From positions 1,860,001 through 1,924,000 of the forward strand of contig NZ_LR134363.1 in NCBI RefSeq assembly GCF_900637295.1: a stretch of 64,000 bases of DNA. Direction: 5' to 3'. Position 1 is the stretch's first letter. The number at the start of each line of letters is the position of its first letter. The notes under the pieces are model-generated. The model made no database searches. It had not been told where the DNA came from and worked only from the letters and a program-made list of their open reading frames with translations. Of the stretch, positions 17,434-41,451 are shown piece after piece. The position numbers were made by a program, and so were the translations under genes. This stretch comes from Actinomyces slackii. Its GTDB lineage: Bacteria; Actinomycetota; Actinomycetes; Actinomycetales; Actinomycetaceae.

Positions 17434-17608
17434 CCGGCGCTGAATGACTCGCGCCGACTGATTGGCCGGGCCCGCCGCCGCGGCATTCTCCCGAGGCGGG
17501 GTGCCCAAGAACACAGGCGGGTCAAGGGCCAGGAGGTTGGAGCGGCGCGTCGTATCGCCTAAAGTTGTCAGCCGGTGCGTGCTGCACCATTGCCCAGGAG
17601 AGGGCCCG

Positions 17609-17626
17609 GCGCAACGCTCGTTGCGC
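17609..17626 (+). promoter_or_regulatory. Leader hairpin upstream of rplU
   Basis: GCGCAACG (17609-17616) pairs with CGTTGCGC (17619-17626) across two bases, in the 220-base gap between rne and rplU. It could be a ribosomal-protein leader or simply a leader stem; I do not recognise a named motif. Confidence 0.4.
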
Positions 17627-17653
17627 GCAGAGCCCGATGAAGTAACGACAGAG

Positions 17654-17974
17654 ATGAGCATTCAAGTGGTCTACGCGATCGTCAAGGCCGGCGGCCGTCA
17701 GGAGAAGGTCTCCGTCGGCGACGTCGTGGTTGTCGACAAGCTCGCCGGCGAGATCGGTGACGAGGTCTCCCTCGCCCCCCTCATGCTGGTGGATGGCGAC
17801 ACGGTGACCACCGCCGCTGCCGACCTGGCCAAGGCCTCCGTCACCGCCGAGATCATCGGCGATGAGAAGGGCCCCAAGATCAACATCCTGAAGTTCAAGA
17901 ACAAGACCGGCTACCGCAAGCGCCAGGGCCACCGCGCCCAGCTCACGGCCATCAAGGTCACCGGCATCAAGTGA
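17654..17974 (+). CDS. rplU: 50S ribosomal protein L21
   Basis: A 106-residue protein with the L21 core [19 protein letters not shown] and the C-terminal [19 protein letters not shown]. It binds 23S rRNA in the large subunit. Two starts are possible: ATG at 17654 (used here) and GTG at 17666, which would begin directly at VYAIVKAGG as in many homologues. Neither has a strong ribosome site, so the first four residues are uncertain. rpmA follows after 72 bases. Confidence 0.97.
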
Positions 17975-18046
17975 CCCCGCGGCGCCGTCGAGCCTGACGG
18001 CACCGGTCCCCCTGAACTCACCAGATCGAGAAGAAAGAAGCCTGAC

Positions 18047-18304
18047 ATGGCACACAAGAAGGGTCTTGGCTCCTCCCGCAATGGCCGCGACTCCAATGCC
18101 CAGCGCCTGGGCGTCAAGCGCTATGGGGGCCAGTTCGTCAAGGCCGGCGAGATCATCGTCCGCCAGCGCGGCACCCACTTCCACCCCGGCAAGAACGTGG
18201 GCCGCGGCAATGACGACACCCTCTTCGCCAAGGCGGCCGGCAATGTCGAGTTCGGCACCTTCCGCGGCCGCAGGGTCGTCAACATCGTGCTCCCCGAGGC
18301 CTGA
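18047..18304 (+). CDS. rpmA: 50S ribosomal protein L27
   Basis: An 85-residue protein beginning [20 protein letters not shown], the conserved N-terminus that reaches toward the peptidyl transferase centre. There is no N-terminal cleavage extension of the firmicute type. GAAAGAAG lies shortly upstream. It follows rplU in the usual order and is ended by a strong hairpin. Confidence 0.98.
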
Positions 18305-18330
18305 GCCCAGGAGAGCACCCGCTTCCTTCA

Positions 18331-18372
18331 CGCCGCGAGGGCGGACGGCACGGGCCGTCCGCCCTCGCGGCG
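18331..18372 (+). terminator. Strong hairpin after rpmA
   Basis: An 18-base perfect stem: CGCCGCGAGGGCGGACGG (18331-18348) pairs with 18355-18372 around a six-base loop. It lies 27 bases after the rpmA stop and 50 before obg, so it probably ends or attenuates the rplU-rpmA transcript. No U-tract follows. Confidence 0.8.
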
Positions 18373-18421
18373 TACCGGATGGGATCCCCCATCGCTGAGC
18401 TGATAGACCCAGGAGCGCCGC

Positions 18422-20011
18422 ATGCCCAGCTTCATCGACCGAGTGGTCCTTCACGTCGCCGGCGGCGACGGCGGGAACGGATGCACCTCCGTCCATCGTG
18501 AGAAGTTCAAGCCCCTGGCAGGCCCCGACGGCGGGGATGGTGGGCACGGCGGCAGCGTCATCCTGGTGGCCGACCCCTCTGTGACCACCCTGCTGACCTA
18601 CCACCGTTCCCCGCACCGCAGGGCCGGCAACGGCACCCCCGGCATGGGGGACTGGCGGCGCGGGACCGATGGCAAGGACCTCATCCTTCCCGTCCCCGAG
18701 GGTACCGTGGTCAAGGACGCCTCCGGGGAGGTCCTCGCCGACCTCGTCGGCGCCGAGGCCTCCGTCGTGGTGGCCGCCGGGGGCACCGGGGGCCGGGGGA
18801 ACTTCTCCCTGGCCTCCGCGCGGCGCCGCGCCCCGGGCTTCCACCTGCTGGGCGAGCCCGGCCAGGCCCTGGATGTGACCCTGGAGCTCAAGACCATCGC
18901 GGATGTCGCCCTCGTGGGCTACCCCAGTGCCGGCAAGTCCTCCCTCATCGCCGCCATGAGCGCCGCGCGGCCCAAGATCGCCGAGTACCCGTTCACCACC
19001 CTCGTGCCCAATCTCGGGGTGGTGGAGGCCGGCTCCACCCGCTACACGATCGCCGATGTGCCCGGTCTCATCCCGGGAGCATCTCAGGGCAAGGGCCTGG
19101 GCCTGGAGTTCCTGCGGCATATCGAGCGCTGCGCCGTCATCGTCCACATCCTGGATTGCGCCACCCTGGAGTCGGGCCGCGACCCGCTCAGCGACATGGA
19201 CGCCATCGAGGCCGAGCTGGCCGCCTACGCCGAGCGCCTGGGCGATCAGGAGAGTGACCCGGCCGTCACCGGGCGGGTCCCGCTCATGGAGCGGCCGCGC
19301 GTGGCCGTCCTGGCCAAGACCGACGTCCCCGATGCGGCCGAGCTCGCCGACTTCGTCCGTGAGGACCTCGAGTCCCGCGGGATGCCGGTTTTCGCGGTCT
19401 CCGCCGTCGCGCGCACGGGACTGCGCCCCCTGTCCTTCGCCCTGGCCTCCCTGGTGGATGAGGCCCGCTCCTCCGCCCCGGTCACCGCTGCCGCCGCTCA
19501 GGCAGCCGCCGAGGCTGAGCGTCCCGTCATCCGGCCTGCCGCCGTGGGGCGCCGTCGGCCCGAGCCGGTGGCCGAGGTGCGCTACGTCACCCATCCCACT
19601 GAGGGGCGGGTCTACCAGGTGCGCGGGGACAAGCCCGAGCGCTGGGTGCGCCAGACCGACTTCTCCAATGATGAGGCGGTCGGCTACCTCGCCGACCGCC
19701 TGGCCGCCGCGGGAGTGGAGGACGAGCTCGTCAAGGCCGGGGCGCAGGCCGGTGACCCGGTGCTCATCGGCGCCCTGGAAGGGGGGGTGCTCTTCACCTG
19801 GGAGCCATCCCTGTCCACCGGGCCCGAGCTGCTGGGGGCGCGGGGAACCGACCTGCGCGTGGACCCCAGCACCAGGCGCACCAATGTGGAGCGCCGTGCC
19901 GAGTACCACGAGCGGATGGACGCCAAGGAGGCCGCTCGCGCCCAGTTGCGGGCTGAGGCCGCTGAGGGCCTGTGGACCGATGCCGCCTGGGATGAGGGGG
20001 ATCAGCGATGA
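18422..20011 (+). CDS. obg: GTPase Obg/CgtA
   Basis: A 529-residue ribosome-associated GTPase. The N-terminal Gly-rich Obg domain covers about 1-160 ([20 protein letters not shown]). The G domain has G1 GYPSAGKSS (about 164), G3 [10 protein letters not shown] and G4 AKTD (about 297). The C-terminal OCT domain includes [18 protein letters not shown] near 400. It contributes to large-subunit assembly and stress control. Length is normal for actinobacteria. Its stop overlaps the proB start by 4 bases, so both are co-expressed. Confidence 0.97.
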
Positions 20012-21165
20012 GCACCGTATCCGCCCAGGTGCAGGCGGGGCGGCCTGAGGCGCTGCCGAGCGGCGCGCGCGTCGTGGTCAAGATCGGCTCATCCTCCCTG
20101 ACCCGTGACGACGGCGGACTGGACCTCAACCGCATCGACATCATGGCCGGTCTTGTCGCCGGACTGCGGGGCCGGGGCCATGACGTGGTGCTGGTCTCCT
20201 CGGGGGCGGTAGCCGCGGGCCTGACCCCGCTGGGCATGGAGCGCCGGCCCGGCGAGCTGCGCCTGCTTCAGGCGGCCGCCTCCGTGGGACAGGGCAATCT
20301 GCTCGCCCGCTGGCAGACGGCGATGAGCGCCTATGGGGTGGTCACCGCCCAGGTGCTGCTGACAGCCCAGGACGTGGCGGTGCGCAGTCACTACCGCACG
20401 GTTCGCTCAACCTTCGACGCCCTGCTGTCATTGGGTGCGGTGCCCATCATCAATGAGAACGACGCCGTGGCCACCACGGAGTTCAACCTGGGGGACAACG
20501 ATCACCTGGCGGCCCTGGTCTCCCACCTGGTGACAGCCGATGTCCTGGTGCTGCTCACCGACGTCGACGGGCTGTGGACCGCCCGCCCGGGCACCCCGGG
20601 GGCCGAGCCGATCCGGCTGGTGCGATCGGGGGCCGATCTGGAGGGCGTATCCGTCAGCGGCCGTGGCTCGGCGGTGGGCACCGGCGGCATGACCACCAAG
20701 GTCCAGGCCGCCACCATTGCCTGCGCCTCAGGGACCGCCACCCTCATCGCCAGTGCTGACGACGCCGCCCGCCTCCTGTCCGGACCGCGGCTGCCCGCCG
20801 ACGTGGGCACCTGGTTCGCCCCCACTGGGCCCCACCGCCCCAGCCGGCGGTTGTGGATGGCCTACGCCTCGGTGCCCGAAGGGCGGGTCCTGGTGGATGA
20901 GGGAGCGGCCCGCGCCCTGACCGTGGGCAAGAAGTCGCTTCTGCTTCCCGGGGTGATCGGCGTGACCGGGGACTTCGAGTCCGGGGCCGTGGTCGACGTC
21001 GTGGGGCCCGAGCGCATCGTGGCCCGGGGGATCTGCCGCTATGCGGCAGCCGAGCTGGAGGAGGTCCTGGCCGCTCGGGCCACCGGAGGGCCGGTGCCCG
21101 ACCATGTGGCCCCCGTCGTCCACCGCGACGACCTGGCCGAGCTCCCCCGCACCGCAGGGGTCTGA
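20008..21165 (+). CDS. proB: Glutamate 5-kinase
   Basis: A 385-residue enzyme that phosphorylates glutamate in the first step of proline synthesis. The amino-acid-kinase domain has [10 protein letters not shown] near residue 28, [11 protein letters not shown] and the substrate loop [18 protein letters not shown]. The C-terminal PUA domain spans about 285-385 ([20 protein letters not shown]). It overlaps obg by 4 bases. Its pathway partner proA is not adjacent: two opposite-strand genes lie between, which splits an order (obg-proB-proA) that is usually continuous in actinobacteria. Confidence 0.97.
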
Positions 21166-21198
21166 GACTCCCACCCGTCAGCGGCGAGTGCGTCGGAC

Positions 21199-21813
21199 TC
21201 ACTGGTCCTGCGCGCTCACCAGCAGATCGCGGAGTCGCGCGAGATCGGCGACGGCGCGACTCAGGCTCGGACTGCTCTCGCACGCCCGTGCCACATCCCA
21301 ATGCTCCTGGGCAAAGGTGTTGATGACGGTGACGTACAGCGGGCCGGGGCTGCCGTCCTGGCGAACTGCATCCTTCTTGATCTGTGAGGACCTTGAGCGC
21401 TGGCACAGCCGTAGCAGTTCCTGCTTGGCGTGAGGCAGATCATCGGGACGGGCGGGAACGCGGGTATGCGGGACCTTGAAGTGCTCAGCGAAGCCCGTGG
21501 TATCCGCCATGAGCCAGGACTCGGTCATCGAGCAGGCCAGGCGCAGGATGAAACCCTCACCGACAGAGGCCTGACCGAGCAGTTGCGTTCGAAGCTCAAC
21601 GGGACAGTGGGAGTCGGAGTCCCGGAAGACGATCCACGGGTTGGCCAGGGGCGCGTTGGCGAGCCTTTTGATCAGCTTGTCCAGGTTCGCCGAGCCGCTC
21701 TTCTCCAAGCATGGTCGCGTGAGGGCCAGGCCCACGTGGCGCAGCAGGGCTTGCACCATGCCTGTGTCGGAGCGTCCTTCTACCGCGACGCTCACACATG
21801 GCGGGACGGTCAT
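21199..21813 (-). CDS. TOPRIM/DUF4276-like protein, partner of an AAA ATPase
   Basis: A 204-residue protein. The N-terminus has the TOPRIM-like acidic patch: Glu12 in VAVEGRSDTGMV and the DxD pair Asp65/Asp67 in IVFRDSDSH. ESWLMAD (about 98-104) resembles the conserved E-A-W-L-L-A-D stretch of DUF4276 proteins. This fold occurs in the nuclease or effector subunits paired with OLD-like ATPases (for example RloB-type and PARIS-type systems). It overlaps the ATPase gene by 4 bases and is translated after it. It has no membrane segment. I infer a nuclease or effector role in an anti-phage or DNA-repair module; family assignment is by motif only. Confidence 0.65.
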   Translation of the reverse strand: MTVPPCVSVAVEGRSDTGMVQALLRHVGLALTRPCLEKSGSANLDKLIKRLANAPLANPWIVFRDSDSHCPVELRTQLLGQASVGEGFILRLACSMTESWLMADTTGFAEHFKVPHTRVPARPDDLPHAKQELLRLCQRSRSSQIKKDAVRQDGSPGPLYVTVINTFAQEHWDVARACESSPSLSRAVADLARLRDLLVSAQDQ

Positions 21814-22973
21814 CGACTGCTCCGTGCGGCCACGGTCAGCCCGGTGAGATCACCCGGAGTGATGAGTCCGTCGACGATCTCGGCGAGGCTCAACCCCAGG
21901 GTCAGGTTCTCGTCGGTGCCGAAGGCCGGCTCCGAGAGCAGACCCGCCTGGGACCCGTCTTTCGTCACCGTGAGCACAAGTACCTCTGAGGGGACGACAC
22001 CCTCGTCATTGAGAATCTCAGGCGCGTGGGTGGACAGCAGGATCTGCAGGTCGGAGGAGCGGCGTGCCTGGGCCAGGACCGTTGGCAGCATGCGCACCAC
22101 AGCGCTGTTCAGGGACAACTCGGGTTCCTCCAGCAGGAGGATGCCGGGGGTCTTTGGGGCCTTGATGATCGACCACAGCAGGCCGATGAGGCGCAGGGTG
22201 CCGTCGGAGAAGTCCGCCTCGCTCTGAAGCGCCGGCTTGGACCGCCAGTTCCTGTACCCCGCGATGAGGTGCGGCTTACCCGCGCTGTCAGTCTCGATGT
22301 TAAGTGTCTCGAAGCCGGGAACGGCGGCCTGGAGGGCCTTCTCCATTCGACGGAGCCAGGCGTCGCGGGTTCTGGTCTGCGTGGCGTTCATCTCGGCGAT
22401 GAAGTGGGCTCCGTAGGGGTCGTTGTCGGGGATGCCTACTCGATTTGGGTCCCGAATGATCTGCGGGACCAGGTGGAAGTACTGGACCCGCGTGAAGTAG
22501 TCGGCGAGAGCGCGGAATGGCTGGTTCGCCGAGATCTGCTCCAGGTGGGTTTGTGTGAGTCGCTCCGGGTCGGCGTCGTCCTGAGCGTCTGGTCGTCGCA
22601 GGAGTCGCTCTCCGTTACGGATCACGAGCTCCTCGGCCACGACCGGACGATTGTGGCCCTGGCCCTCGCCCTTGATCGACAGTCGGTACTCCCACGTGTC
22701 CTCGCCATCCTGAAGGGTGACAGCCACAACCAGGTGCCCTTTGGCGTTGTTGCGGGCGAAGAGGCTGCGCAGCTTGCTCAGGCCCCCACGCTTCTTGATC
22801 GCGTGACCCAGACCCCCTCCGGCCGGGGTCAGGTCCCCCAGGAACCGGAAGATATCCAGAAGATTGGACTTGCCGGAGGCATTCGGCCCTACGACGAAGA
22901 GCCGGTCGCCGATGTCGAAGGAGACGTTCTTGAAGTTGCGCCAGTTGCTGGCCTCCAGATGGGTGATCCTCAC
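21810..22973 (-). CDS. AAA/OLD-like ATPase (SMC-type fold)
   Basis: A 387-residue ATPase of the AAA_15/AAA_21 class. It starts MRITHLEASNWRNFKNVSF, the usual OLD/RecF-like opening. Walker A is GPNASGKSN (29-37), the signature is FSDGTLRLIGLLW (255-267), Walker B ILLLEEPE (278-285) and the switch His is in LLSTHAPEIL (312-321). The middle (about 90-240) is the short coiled-coil/arm region. Together with the overlapping TOPRIM-like gene it forms a two-gene cassette on the strand opposite to obg-proB and proA. GC content is visibly lower than in the flanking genes, which fits acquisition. Confidence 0.8.
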   Translation of the reverse strand: MRITHLEASNWRNFKNVSFDIGDRLFVVGPNASGKSNLLDIFRFLGDLTPAGGGLGHAIKKRGGLSKLRSLFARNNAKGHLVVAVTLQDGEDTWEYRLSIKGEGQGHNRPVVAEELVIRNGERLLRRPDAQDDADPERLTQTHLEQISANQPFRALADYFTRVQYFHLVPQIIRDPNRVGIPDNDPYGAHFIAEMNATQTRTRDAWLRRMEKALQAAVPGFETLNIETDSAGKPHLIAGYRNWRSKPALQSEADFSDGTLRLIGLLWSIIKAPKTPGILLLEEPELSLNSAVVRMLPTVLAQARRSSDLQILLSTHAPEILNDEGVVPSEVLVLTVTKDGSQAGLLSEPAFGTDENLTLGLSLAEIVDGLITPGDLTGLTVAARSSR

Positions 22974-23259
22974 GGCAGCGGCCCTCCGATCATGCGGTTC
23001 TCCAGAGCATCTTCCCCGAGTCTATCCTGTGGCTGGTGACAGCGATCCTGGCCAGAAGGTGTCTGAGCCCGGGAGCGGTGATGGGGCATCACGCCGGTGA
23101 GACAGGGGACGGCGAGTCGGGAGGCGGCGTCATGGGCTCTGAGCGGCACGCGAGCCTGGGCGTGAGCCCGGCACTGGTGCGGGGGCTCTCAGCGGGTTGC
23201 CTCCGGTAAGTCAGGTCGTGCCCACCCCGTTCTTATCTTTTCACCGTAGGGTAGGGCGC
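22974..23259 (+). promoter_or_regulatory. proA: proA upstream region with leaderless -10 candidate
   Basis: This gap separates the ATPase start from proA. TAGGGT (23247-23252) ends exactly seven bases before the proA ATG, the same TAnnnT-N7-ATG layout as at 4580. AGGGTAGGG could alternatively act as a ribosome site. An 8-base word CGGCGAGT occurs here (23110-23117) and just after proB (21182-21189). No other gene is visible. Confidence 0.45.
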
Positions 23260-24567
23260 ATGGCTGAATCGACCGCCCCCCGGGATGCTCAGGACCTTGT
23301 CGCCGCCACTGCCAGTGCCGCCCGCACGGCGCAGCGCTCCATAGCCGGGGCCCCGCGCGCGGTCAAGGATGCGGCTCTTGTGGCCATGGCCGATGCCCTG
23401 GTGGCCCACACCGATGAGATCCTGACCGCCAATGCCTCGGACCTCCAGCGGGGCCGGGACTCCGGCATGAAGCCCGGGCTCCTGGACCGCCTGGCCCTGG
23501 ACGCCTCCCGTCTGGAGGGCATCGCCGAGGCCCTGCGGGAGATCGCCGCCCTGCCCGACCCGGTGGGTCAGATCCTTGACGGCTCGGTCATGCCCAACGG
23601 CCTGCGTGTGCGGCGCGTGCGCGTGCCCATCGGGGTGGTCGGCATGATCTACGAGGCCCGTCCCAATGTGACCGTCGATGTGGCGGCCCTGGCCATCAAG
23701 GCGGGCAACGCCGTCATCCTCCGGGGCGGCAGCGCGGCCCAGGACTCCAACGCCGCCATCATCGCTGCCCTGCGCTCGGCCCTCAAGGCTCAAGGGCTGC
23801 CCCCTGAGCTCGTGGCCAGTATCGACGCGGCCGGGCGCGAGGGCGCCACGGCGCTCATGCGAGCCCGCGGGGCCATCGACCTGCTGGTGCCGCGCGGCGG
23901 CGCCGGCCTCATCCGCTCGGTGGTCGAGAACTCCATCGTCCCAGTCATCGAGACCGGCTCCGGCAACTGCCATGTCTACGTCGATGCCAGCGCCCAGCAG
24001 GATGAGGCCGTCGAGATCATCATCAATGCCAAGACTCAGCGCGTCGGCGTCTGCAACGCCGCCGAGACGCTCATCGTCCACCGGGAGATCGCGAAGGCCT
24101 GGCTGCCGCGGGCAGCCGAGGCGCTGTGGCAGAAGGGCACCACTCTGCACGCCGATGAGCAGGCTCTCCAGATCCTGGCCCCCGCCGCAGGCGCTGGCGG
24201 GCATGAGGCGCTCCTGGAGGCCGCCACCCCCGAGGACTGGGAGACCGAGTACGGCTCCCTGGACCTGGCCGTGCGCGTGGTCGACGACGTCCAGGCCGCC
24301 ATCGAGCACATCCGCGCCCACACCACGGGCCACACCGAGGCCGTCCTGGCACAGGACGCCTCTGTCATCAACGACTTCATCGCCGGCATGGACTCGGCGG
24401 CCGTTATCGTCAACGCCTCGACCCGCTTCACCGACGGCGGCCAGTTGGGGCTGGGAGCCGAGCTGGGGATCTCCACCCAGAAGCTCCATGCCCGCGGTCC
24501 CATGGGCCTTGCGGAGCTGACCACCACGATGTGGATCGTTGAGGGCGACGGACATATCCGCACCTGA
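23260..24567 (+). CDS. proA: Glutamate-5-semialdehyde dehydrogenase
   Basis: A 435-residue NADPH-dependent reductase that converts glutamyl-5-phosphate to glutamate semialdehyde, the second step of proline synthesis. Family hallmarks are VGMIYEARPNVTVD, ILRGGSAA, VPRGGAGLI and the catalytic Cys in RVGVCNAAETLIVH (about residue 266). The C-terminus has DGGQLGLGAELGISTQKLHA. I chose the ATG at 23260 because it gives the normal length and matches a leaderless promoter; an earlier in-frame start at 23197 adds a non-family leader. Because of the inserted cassette it must use its own promoter. Confidence 0.97.
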   Translation: MAESTAPRDAQDLVAATASAARTAQRSIAGAPRAVKDAALVAMADALVAHTDEILTANASDLQRGRDSGMKPGLLDRLALDASRLEGIAEALREIAALPDPVGQILDGSVMPNGLRVRRVRVPIGVVGMIYEARPNVTVDVAALAIKAGNAVILRGGSAAQDSNAAIIAALRSALKAQGLPPELVASIDAAGREGATALMRARGAIDLLVPRGGAGLIRSVVENSIVPVIETGSGNCHVYVDASAQQDEAVEIIINAKTQRVGVCNAAETLIVHREIAKAWLPRAAEALWQKGTTLHADEQALQILAPAAGAGGHEALLEAATPEDWETEYGSLDLAVRVVDDVQAAIEHIRAHTTGHTEAVLAQDASVINDFIAGMDSAAVIVNASTRFTDGGQLGLGAELGISTQKLHARGPMGLAELTTTMWIVEGDGHIRT

Positions 24568-25029: not shown

Positions 25030-25692
25030 TCACACGAGGCGGTAACCCATCCCTCGCACGGTCTGGACCCGGTCCTTGCCGAGTTTGGCGCGCAGATACG
25101 AGATGTAGACCTCCACCACATTGGAGCCGGGGTCGAAGTCATAGCCCCACACCGAGCTCAGCAGTTGCTCGCGACTGAGGACCTGACCGGGGTGGCGCAT
25201 GAGGGTCTCCGCCAGGGCGAACTCTCGGGCGGAGAGCTCGATGATCCGGCCATCGGCCTCCATGGTGCGCGTGCGCAGGTCCAGGACCAGGTCCCGGTGG
25301 GTGAGCTGGGTGGGGTCGGCCGCTGCTGAGGCATCTGAGCGCAGGCGCACCCGGATGCGGGCGAGGAGTTCCTCGAAGGAGAAGGGCTTGGGCATGTAGT
25401 CGTCGGCCCCTCCTTCCAGGCCGGCGACCCTGTCGGCCACCGAGGAGCGGGCGGTGAGCATGATCACAGGGGTGGAGACGCCCTGCCCCCTGATCTGCTC
25501 CAGGACGGCGAATCCATCGGTGTCGGGCAGTCCGACGTCCAGGATGATCAGGTCGATATCGTCCTGGACCGCCAGGTGGATCGCCTCATTGCCCGAGGCG
25601 GTGGTCTGCGCTGTGAACCCCGCGGCCCTGAGCCCCTTGACCAGGAAGGAGGCGATGCGGGTCTCGTCCTCGACGACGAGGATGCTACTCAT
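25030..25692 (-). CDS. OmpR-family response regulator
   Basis: A 220-residue regulator. The receiver has the acidic residues in VVEDE, phosphoacceptor Asp52 (LIILDVGLPD), Thr80 and Lys102 (MPKPF). The winged-helix DNA-binding domain covers about 125-220 (LSAREFALAETLMRHPGQVL, ending VQTVRGMGYRLV). It lies 38 bases after the histidine kinase gene and is the last gene of the 36.2-25.0 kb minus-strand block, so it probably regulates, or is expressed with, the glycan genes. Confidence 0.95.
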   Translation of the reverse strand: MSSILVVEDETRIASFLVKGLRAAGFTAQTTASGNEAIHLAVQDDIDLIILDVGLPDTDGFAVLEQIRGQGVSTPVIMLTARSSVADRVAGLEGGADDYMPKPFSFEELLARIRVRLRSDASAAADPTQLTHRDLVLDLRTRTMEADGRIIELSAREFALAETLMRHPGQVLSREQLLSSVWGYDFDPGSNVVEVYISYLRAKLGKDRVQTVRGMGYRLV

Positions 25693-25730
25693 CGAAGCCT
25701 ACCCTTCGTTGCGGTGCTGGACGGTCGATA

Positions 25731-27197
25731 CTAACGGCCAATGCCCCCGCAGGGCATCCGCAGGGTGAAGGTCGAGCCGGCTGATGGCTGGGAGGCGATG
25801 TCGAGCGTGCCCTGGTGCGCCCCGATGATGGACTCCACGATGCTCAGCCCCAGGCCGGTGCCGTGGGCCTTGCGCTCGGCGTCGGCGCTCCTGCCGAAGC
25901 GCGTGCGCACCAGGTCCAGGTCCTTCTCAGCGATGCCGATTCCCTCATCGGTGACCCACAGGAGAAGCTCGTCGTTGTCGATGCGCGACCCCATGGCGAT
26001 GCGCGTGCCGGGATCGGAGTACTTCACCGCATTGGCGGCCAGCTGCAGCCAGGCCTGGGTCAGGCGCAGGCGGTCCACCCTGCAGGTGGCTGTCGCCGTC
26101 TCCTGCAGCTCCCATCGCCTGTCTCCCAGGGCCTGGGCCTTGTCGAAGACCCCCAGCGTCAGGTCCTCGACGTCCACCTCCTCGGGGATGATGAGATCGG
26201 CGCCCGTGGACTTCGCCAGCAGCAGCAGGTCGTTGACCAGGATGCCCATGCGATCCAGCTCCTCGATGGCCAGGGTCTGGGTCTGGGTGACATCCTCGGC
26301 GTCCTGGGGGTCCAGGAGCTCAAGATGCCCCCGGATGATCGTGATGGGCGTGCGCAGCTCGTGGCCGATGTCATCGAGCAGGCTGCGCTCGGCCTCCACC
26401 GAGCGCTGGACCCGGTCCAGCATCCAGTTGATGGTCTGGGCCAGGACGCTGAGGTCGTCCCGCCCCCGCACCGGGACCCGGGAGGTCAGGTCGTTGTCCC
26501 CTATCGACTCGGTGGCGCGCCGCAGCTCGCCGATGGGGCGCAGCAGCCGCTCGACGCCGAACCAGCTCAGGGCGGAGACCAGGGCTATGGTGAACACCGC
26601 CGAGGCCGCGTAGAGGAGCATGGTGCGCCTGAGCTCCTGGCCCGCGGCGTCCAGGTCGATGATGTGGACCAGGGCGGCCTGGGCTCTGCCGTCCCGCAGG
26701 GGAACCACCATCACCCGATAGGAGCCCTTGTCCGTCTCCATGGTGGTGATCACCGACTCGTCGGCCACCACGTGGGGCTCGAGCGCCTCGACCAGCTGGG
26801 CATCCTGGTCCGGCCTGAGCGTCGTGTTCTCAGCGGGACGCCATTTGACCTCCCGGCCCACGAATCCCAGCTCGCTCTCCCCGGGATGGATGACCGCGCG
26901 CTGGATGTGGGTGTAGACCACCTGTGAGGCATTGGTGAACCGGGCGCCGGTCGAGGGATCCACCCCCTGGGTGGCCAGCACCCTGAAGCGATTCCGGTTG
27001 CGCTCCAACTGCTCATCGATCTCGGCGCGCAAGCTGCTCTGGCCCAGGAGCCACACGATCGTGCCCGACATGGCCAGGGCGATGGTGGCCACCAGGATGA
27101 TGGCCGCCATGACCCGGGTCCCGACGGTGAAGGTCGGTGCGATCTGCTCGGCGCGCACGGGACCATTGTGCCCGGTGCCCGGCCCCTGCCCCAGCAT
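25731..27197 (-). CDS. HAMP-containing sensor histidine kinase
   Basis: A 488-residue membrane kinase with TM1 at about 28-52, an extracellular sensor domain of about 140 residues, TM2 at about 193-215, then HAMP (216-268). The phosphoacceptor His279 is in LLDDIGHELRTPITIIRGHL. The ATPase domain includes NAVKYSD, DEGIGI and GTGLGLSIV. It is cognate with the adjacent OmpR-type regulator. I use the ATG at 27197, 7 bases after the ugd stop, but no clear ribosome site exists and a GTG at 27158 is also possible, so the first residues are uncertain. Confidence 0.92.
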   Translation of the reverse strand: MLGQGPGTGHNGPVRAEQIAPTFTVGTRVMAAIILVATIALAMSGTIVWLLGQSSLRAEIDEQLERNRNRFRVLATQGVDPSTGARFTNASQVVYTHIQRAVIHPGESELGFVGREVKWRPAENTTLRPDQDAQLVEALEPHVVADESVITTMETDKGSYRVMVVPLRDGRAQAALVHIIDLDAAGQELRRTMLLYAASAVFTIALVSALSWFGVERLLRPIGELRRATESIGDNDLTSRVPVRGRDDLSVLAQTINWMLDRVQRSVEAERSLLDDIGHELRTPITIIRGHLELLDPQDAEDVTQTQTLAIEELDRMGILVNDLLLLAKSTGADLIIPEEVDVEDLTLGVFDKAQALGDRRWELQETATATCRVDRLRLTQAWLQLAANAVKYSDPGTRIAMGSRIDNDELLLWVTDEGIGIAEKDLDLVRTRFGRSADAERKAHGTGLGLSIVESIIGAHQGTLDIASQPSAGSTFTLRMPCGGIGR

Positions 27198-41158: not shown

Positions 41159-41234
41159 GGGGCTATGGCGCAGTTGGTAGCGCGCTTCCATGGCATGGAA
41201 GAGGTCGGGGGTTCGAATCCCCCTAGCTCCACCA
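41159..41234 (+). tRNA. tRNA-Ala(GGC), CCA encoded
   Basis: A 76-base tRNA. The acceptor stem GGGGCTA/TAGCTCC contains the G3:U70 pair that defines alanine. The anticodon arm CTTCC-ATGGCAT-GGAAG gives anticodon GGC. The T arm is GGGGGTTCGAATCCCCC. The CCA end is encoded (41232-41234). Confidence 0.97.
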
Positions 41235-41323: not shown

Positions 41324-41396
41324 GGGGCTATGGCGCAGTTGGTAGCGCGCTTCCATGGCATGGAAGAGGTCGGGGGTTCGAATCCCCCTAGCTCCA
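41324..41396 (+). tRNA. tRNA-Ala(GGC), second copy, CCA not encoded
   Basis: Identical to the first copy over all 73 bases, including G3:U70 and anticodon GGC. The following bases are CCC, so the CCA end must be added by the nucleotidyltransferase. The 89-base spacer between the copies has no other feature. Confidence 0.96.
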
Positions 41397-41451
41397 CCCA
41401 GTTCGCGGACAGGGATGTCCACCGTCTGCTCCGCTCACGTGATGATGACGA

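Follow-up and report, generated by a model that had tools for sequence, protein, structure and literature searches.

Between the proline-biosynthesis genes proB and proA of Actinomyces slackii lies a cassette of two minus-strand genes, encoding an ATPase and a small nuclease-like protein, and the question is what such a pair does there. It was analysed in a window of 64,000 nucleotides (the whole stretch studied; contig NZ_LR134363.1, positions 1,860,001 to 1,924,000 of a genome that is a single 3.22-Mb contig), to which the coordinates below refer. By sequence comparison the pair belongs to HEC-01, a named candidate family already in PADLOC-DB. We read it with fair confidence as a HEC-01-class defence candidate, most likely a split OLD-type machine in which an ATPase gates a TOPRIM nuclease. 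New here are the predicted OLD-type fold, a candidate active site, and a locus behind proB that is conserved yet turned over. The cassette consists of the following features.

21810..22973, minus strand: HEC-01A ATPase gene, 387 amino acids, GTG start; PADLOC profile PDLC04180 at 527.5 bits, E 5.3e-159; Pfam AAA_21 at 113.6 bits.
21199..21813, minus strand: HEC-01B gene for a TOPRIM nuclease-like protein, 204 amino acids; PADLOC profile PDLC04197 at 249.5 bits, E 4.9e-75; AlphaFold2 predicted local distance difference test score (pLDDT) 91.5.
21810..21813, minus strand: ATGA overlap of the two frames, 4 bases shared.

HEC-01A is the best PADLOC match of the ATPase (residues 1-380 of 387) and HEC-01B that of the small protein (residues 7-194 of 204), for which all eight PADLOC profiles at E values up to 1 are HEC-01 profiles. 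Outside the family, the ATPase scores best on an AriA profile (108 bits; profile length 304, the same as Pfam AAA_21), and its 74.7 bits on NCBIfam MAD3 lie far under the family cutoff of 420. These family matches (5e-159 and 5e-75), together with ratios of nonsynonymous to synonymous substitution rates (dN/dS) well below 1, indicate that both frames are real genes and not chance open reading frames. A preliminary description had proposed a two-gene defence system that it could not name; HEC-01 is the existing candidate that this proposal matches. The primary source for the Hma-embedded candidates (HEC) is reportedly a 2024 preprint. As described in the available parts of two further sources, they are genes sitting between the Hma (helicase, methylase, ATPase) defence genes (PMC12111858; PMC12988326), and the available part of a third mentions HEC-01 a single time, as a Desulfovibrio piger system (PMC12724379). 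Literature searches, in which most matches were judged by title, found no described mechanism or activity for HEC-01 and no match containing DUF4276, and the literature on phosphorothioate systems, as far as available, gave nothing on the pair (PMC10853773).

The small protein is predicted with high confidence to be a TOPRIM protein, the fold on which the preliminary description had made its proposal depend. When its model was searched against PDB structures, the C-terminal regions of Class 2 OLD nucleases came top, tied with a chain of the PARIS complex, and the earlier reading of the pair as ATPase plus TOPRIM protein, with its comparison to OLD and PARIS, is supported by this fold search and by the profile matches. 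The sole match of a PDB sequence-profile search, RPB_PLP3_R6, was taken for a designed repeat protein and rejected as spurious. In the Burkholderia OLD nuclease, according to the available part of the source, metal A is bound directly by E400 and D455 and through waters by D457, metal B is bound directly by E508 and through waters by E404 and T506, and K562 aids catalysis (PMC6755086). The small protein holds candidate counterparts.

21766..21780, minus strand: E12-G-R-S-D16, proposed equivalents of Burkholderia OLD E400 and E404.
21613..21621, minus strand: DxD motif D65-S-D67, proposed equivalents of Burkholderia OLD D455 and D457.
21520..21522, minus strand: E98, close to where helix 96-103 of the model begins; candidate equivalent of E508.

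All five acidic residues are invariant in an alignment of six small proteins. The structural alignment starts at residue 5 of the model and residue 393 of the OLD chain, so that E12 would fall on 400 and D16 on 404, and E98 resembles in position E508, which lies in the first helix of the OLD helical domain. This pairing was drawn from spacing and alignment ranges, with no printed residue alignment, and the five residues may accordingly correspond to the OLD metal ligands. D16 is Asp where OLD has Glu (E404), and counterparts of T506 and K562 fall outside the pairing. In a distant copy on a viral contig (L109), the N-terminal part aligned poorly, and E12 and D16 are not invariant there.

The ATPase carries four conserved motifs, scored in one six-sequence alignment.

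22863..22889, minus strand: Walker A GPNASGKSN, residues 29-37; eight of nine positions invariant, S33 varying with A.
22194..22211, minus strand: FSDGTL, residues 255-260; invariant.
22119..22142, minus strand: Walker B ILLLEEPE, residues 278-285; L279-E285 invariant.
22017..22034, minus strand: STHAPE, residues 314-319; S314-P318 invariant.

We take FSDGTL to be an ABC-signature-like motif, and STHAPE is presumably a switch-histidine-like one. In a PDB sequence search, about the first 50 residues of the ATPase matched chains of GajA, PtuA and OLD, and residues 256-320 matched one ABC transporter chain. The structure prediction of the ATPase reached a pLDDT of only 48.2; the fold search was made with the small-protein model. 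The motifs first pointed out in the two proteins (GPNASGKSN, ILLLEEPE, VEGRSD, RDSD and ESWLMAD) are all present.

In the proposed mechanism, the ABC ATPase would sense infection or invading nucleic acid and would restrain or position the small TOPRIM protein, presumably in a complex. Once triggered, the TOPRIM protein would act as a nuclease, cutting nucleic acid (DNA or tRNA) at a presumed two-metal site, and this cleavage would stop phage multiplication and so provide defence. A sub-case of this mechanism follows PARIS more closely: on sensing a phage protein, the ATPase would free the TOPRIM protein, host tRNA would be cut, and the infection would end abortively. The fold match with a chain of the PARIS complex speaks for this version and the low AriA score of the ATPase against it, and we regard it as possible but doubtful.

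Support for a defence role comes from relatives that lie inside Hma operons, between type I restriction genes, beside a phosphorothioation-associated gene on a plasmid and beside a CI repressor on a viral contig. In a phylum sample of 396 genomes, scored with a small-protein profile for up to eight candidates per genome, at least six genomes matched, the source genome included, at seven places. At all six places outside the source genome, the small-protein frame is directly preceded on its own strand by an ATPase frame (ATPase identities of 46, 49, 43, 25, 24 and 24%). The co-occurrence that the preliminary description had proposed to survey thus holds at each of these places, some of which are in Hma or restriction contexts. 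The relatives embedded in Hma operons have ATPases 43 and 49% identical to the window copy. In one genome (G269) the pair is flanked by HmaA (1581.9 bits) on one side and by HmaB/HmaC (905.6 and 941.6 bits) on the other, and in another (G139) it is placed in the same way, with HmaA split over two frames. A second pair in G139 has an HsdM-like gene on one side and HsdR-like frames on the other, with an IS66 transposase between.

Two further observations concern these operons. In G269 a Schlafen AlbA_2/RecG-C-terminal-like protein, encoded on the strand of the HEC-01 pair in the interval that separates it from HmaA (L120, 5193-7007), is possibly a further embedded component. In G139 a HEC-01B-like sequence continues in-frame into the HmaB methylase (L119, 6629-8302), which may be a natural fusion, a deletion or an assembly fault.

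Mobile DNA was also searched. With the small protein, tblastn returned four plasmid records, all of a 118.7-119.9 kb Synechocystis plasmid, and the annotated neighbours on plasmid pSYSM include a DNA phosphorothioation-associated putative methyltransferase, HNH endonuclease genes and a RelE/HigA-type pair; the ATPase had no plasmid match at 1e-15. A scan of viral contigs found no relative with the small-protein alignment and one with the ATPase alignment, and the pair on viral contig L109 adjoins a phage CI repressor. Against the phage collection, tblastn with the small protein gave nothing, and the ATPase matched one record at 1e-10, MT835995, labelled phage, in which an ATPase and DUF4276-like pair lies at MT835995.1 19650-23257 (L124). 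By eye, the adjoining frame resembles what we take to be a bacterial dapD, so the record may be bacterial DNA and was discarded as phage evidence. The source genome itself carries a second, distant ATPase and DUF4276-type pair, again with a 4-base overlap (C1:2769250-2771012; L002, 830-2592). It matches HEC-01A profile PDLC04178 at 4e-120 and HEC-01B profile PDLC04196 at 6e-57, and a PaaX-like regulator adjoins it (by eye).

Several observations weaken the earlier interpretation or weigh against the defence reading. No defence gene was recognised by eye around the pairs of G346, G281 and G255, at the A. mediterranea locus (L053) or at a family-level metagenome-assembled genome locus (L105). 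In the window, inspection by eye of the starts of the called frames, made without profiles, revealed no other known defence gene. The likeness of the small protein to DUF4276, noted in the preliminary description, exists but is below threshold, at 19 bits against a Pfam gathering cutoff of 30.2, and Pfam offers no other match for this protein; the more distant small proteins of two loci (L123 and L121) exceed that cutoff with 50.4 and 59.3 bits. Finally, the window copy is an orphan between biosynthetic genes, a position that would suit a pair with no part in defence, be it an OLD-like ATPase-nuclease that acts in repair or on the chromosome, or a selfish pair resembling a toxin-antitoxin system. 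An archaeal OLD-family ATPase does act in the cell cycle, according to the available part of one source (PMC12796447), and the purifying selection on the pair is also in keeping with such a role: in the genome pairs that were not saturated, the ATPase has a dN/dS of 0.05-0.30 (53 of 66 pairs) and the small gene one of 0.15-0.30 (15 of 28 pairs), with 13 pairs saturated in each case. We nevertheless consider a non-defence function unlikely, given the relatives inside Hma operons and between restriction genes and the 40 of 48 genus genomes that lack an intact pair, from which it follows that the pair is not essential.

These genus genomes were compared at the site between the two flanking genes.

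20008..21165, plus strand: proB; the cassette starts behind its stop codon.
23197..24567, plus strand: proA, the other flank of the cassette; its true start is likely the ATG at 23260 (by eye).

The gene order is obg-proB-pair-proA (names from translations, by eye), so that, as first described, the pair interrupts the order obg-proB-proA. Both of its genes are on the minus strand, and the pair is therefore convergent with proB and divergent from proA; the earlier description of them as opposite-strand genes sharing 4 bases is right about the overlap and holds for their orientation relative to proB and proA, but not relative to each other. Their lower guanine-cytosine (GC) content was likewise borne out relative to the neighbours, at 0.64-0.66 in 500-base windows against 0.70-0.75 in obg/proB and 0.69-0.72 in proA, but the contrast is modest, values of 0.65-0.68 also occurring around 17500-18500 and 25250-26250 in the 15-29 kb profile. 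No promoter or terminator patterns were found at 21100-23400.

The small protein was searched genome-wide in 99 genomes (the source and 98 relatives, 49 of the 99 belonging to the genus), and the ATPase was looked for in the proB-proA gap of the genus genomes. Fourteen of the 99 matched the small protein, 13 of them within the genus, and all 13 genus matches adjoin proB. Among named loci, its matches were in five Actinomyces and one Actinomycetaceae metagenome-assembled genome. The region downstream of proB could be compared in the 48 genus genomes that have this gene, a match in G002 (E 1.9e-4) not being taken as an orthologue. An intact pair is present in eight (G000, G001, G006, G020, G027, G028, G029 and G031). 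Four others (G016, G040, G022 and G018) keep the ATPase intact, while their small gene is truncated, carries an internal deletion or was not found, in six (G034, G041, G045, G037, G015 and G005) neither gene is intact, and the gap of the remaining 30 shows no trace of the pair at E 1e-3. A core gene present in all relatives, the contrary outcome considered in the preliminary description, is thus ruled out for the genus.

Where a single gene is intact it is always the ATPase (four of four half-intact sites). In G034 a deletion has left a single open frame that runs from the start of the ATPase into the small protein, with apparent loss of the TOPRIM glutamate; counting this copy as an intact small gene would weaken the pattern. 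The fact that one or both genes are no longer intact at 10 of the 18 occupied sites might suggest a decaying remnant without present function at the window locus as well, but this is very improbable, as both window frames are open, their motifs are intact, and dN/dS is well below 1 in unsaturated comparisons that include the window copy. By eye, proB and the ATPase are separated in G037 (L066/L106) and G018 (L104/L107) by an operon for ABC-type sugar transport that includes a LacI-type regulator, and other gaps contain a glycosidase-like gene (G033) or transposase-like genes (G015).

Presence of the cassette partly follows the host phylogeny. When mapped on a tree built from proB+proA of the 48 genomes, trace versus no trace requires 11 changes, against a mean of 14.7 after shuffling, with 6 of 500 shuffles as low. 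The sequences of the ATPase point to exchange. The host tree joins G028 and G029 as sisters (99/96), and keeping them together in the ATPase tree was rejected (approximately unbiased test, p_AU 2.3e-8). Five groupings, chosen after the trees were seen, were tested on the ATPase tree; three were rejected (p 2.3e-8, 4.7e-5 and 0.025) and two were not (0.068 and 0.132), and on the three rejections purely vertical inheritance was rejected. Synonymous divergence (dS) between G022 and G028 is 0.32 for the ATPase and 0.63 for proB; between G028 and G029 it is 0.95 and 0.53, respectively. Because the ATPase and host trees disagree, cassette alleles appear to pass from one species to another while the site stays the same, probably through recombination in the genes on either side.

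By eye, genomes with the pair (G001, G006 and G027) and without it (G042 and G007) diverge right behind the proB stop codon. Copies of the proB 3' end were found on the far side of the cassette, before proA, in three of the 48 genomes, all with occupied sites: G031 (L074; 51 bp, 96%), G016 (L077; 37 bp, 100%) and G020 (L081; 25 bp, 100%). G016 and G020 being sister genomes, the number of independent cases is two at most. None of 480 internal proB windows used as a control gave a repeat, and no such copy occurs at the other 15 of the 18 occupied sites, among them that of the window. The copies resemble repeats left by insertion into the 3' end of a gene; no recombinase gene was noticed in the cassette. 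In Actinomyces, then, the place of the cassette is the gap that follows the 3' end of proB, where it moves from one species to another and often decays, as seen in the tree conflict and the broken copies. We offer only as a tentative conjecture the wider proposal that HEC-01 represents an immune nuclease of a "split Class 2 OLD" kind and that the Actinomyces proB 3' end is a dedicated site for its entry, its exchange between species and its loss, sometimes leaving a lone ATPase with a separate function. Elsewhere in the window, tandem tRNA-Ala(GGC) genes lie about 90 bp apart at 41159-41234 and 41324-41398.

A named candidate system for which the literature searches found no described mechanism thereby gains a concrete predicted fold and a candidate active site. 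The two-gene cassette makes the coupling of separate ABC ATPases and TOPRIM nucleases in immunity testable, and at the Actinomyces locus intact, half and broken copies occur naturally and can be compared.

Among known systems, HEC-01 is the closest by far, its A and B profiles giving the best matches and its gene order being the same; the window copy differs in lying outside any Hma operon, as an orphan between proB and proA, and no HmaC match was found in the source genome. PARIS (AriA/AriB) shares with the pair the separate genes for an ABC ATPase and a TOPRIM protein and a chain to which the small-protein model can be matched. It differs in that no AriB-type profile matched the small protein (PADLOC, E up to 1) and in that the ATPase scores 108 bits on AriA against 527.5 on HEC-01A. 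In the available part of a review, PARIS, with its separate ATPase and TOPRIM genes, is proposed as Class 4 OLD (PMC10568477). Class 2 OLD and the Gabija protein GajA resemble the pair in the predicted TOPRIM domain of the small protein and, putatively, in its metal-site residues, and GajA also in about the first 50 residues of the ATPase, but they hold both parts in one polypeptide, and the next gene downstream of the pair is the convergent proB, not a helicase. MAD3 of the MADS system is an AAA ATPase with weak similarity to the window ATPase, far below its family cutoff. HEC-04/IbfA, finally, is another Hma-embedded candidate that combines an ATPase with a TOPRIM domain, although in a single fused protein, and HEC-04 is reported, in the available part of the source, to be active against T4 and T5 (PMC12111858).
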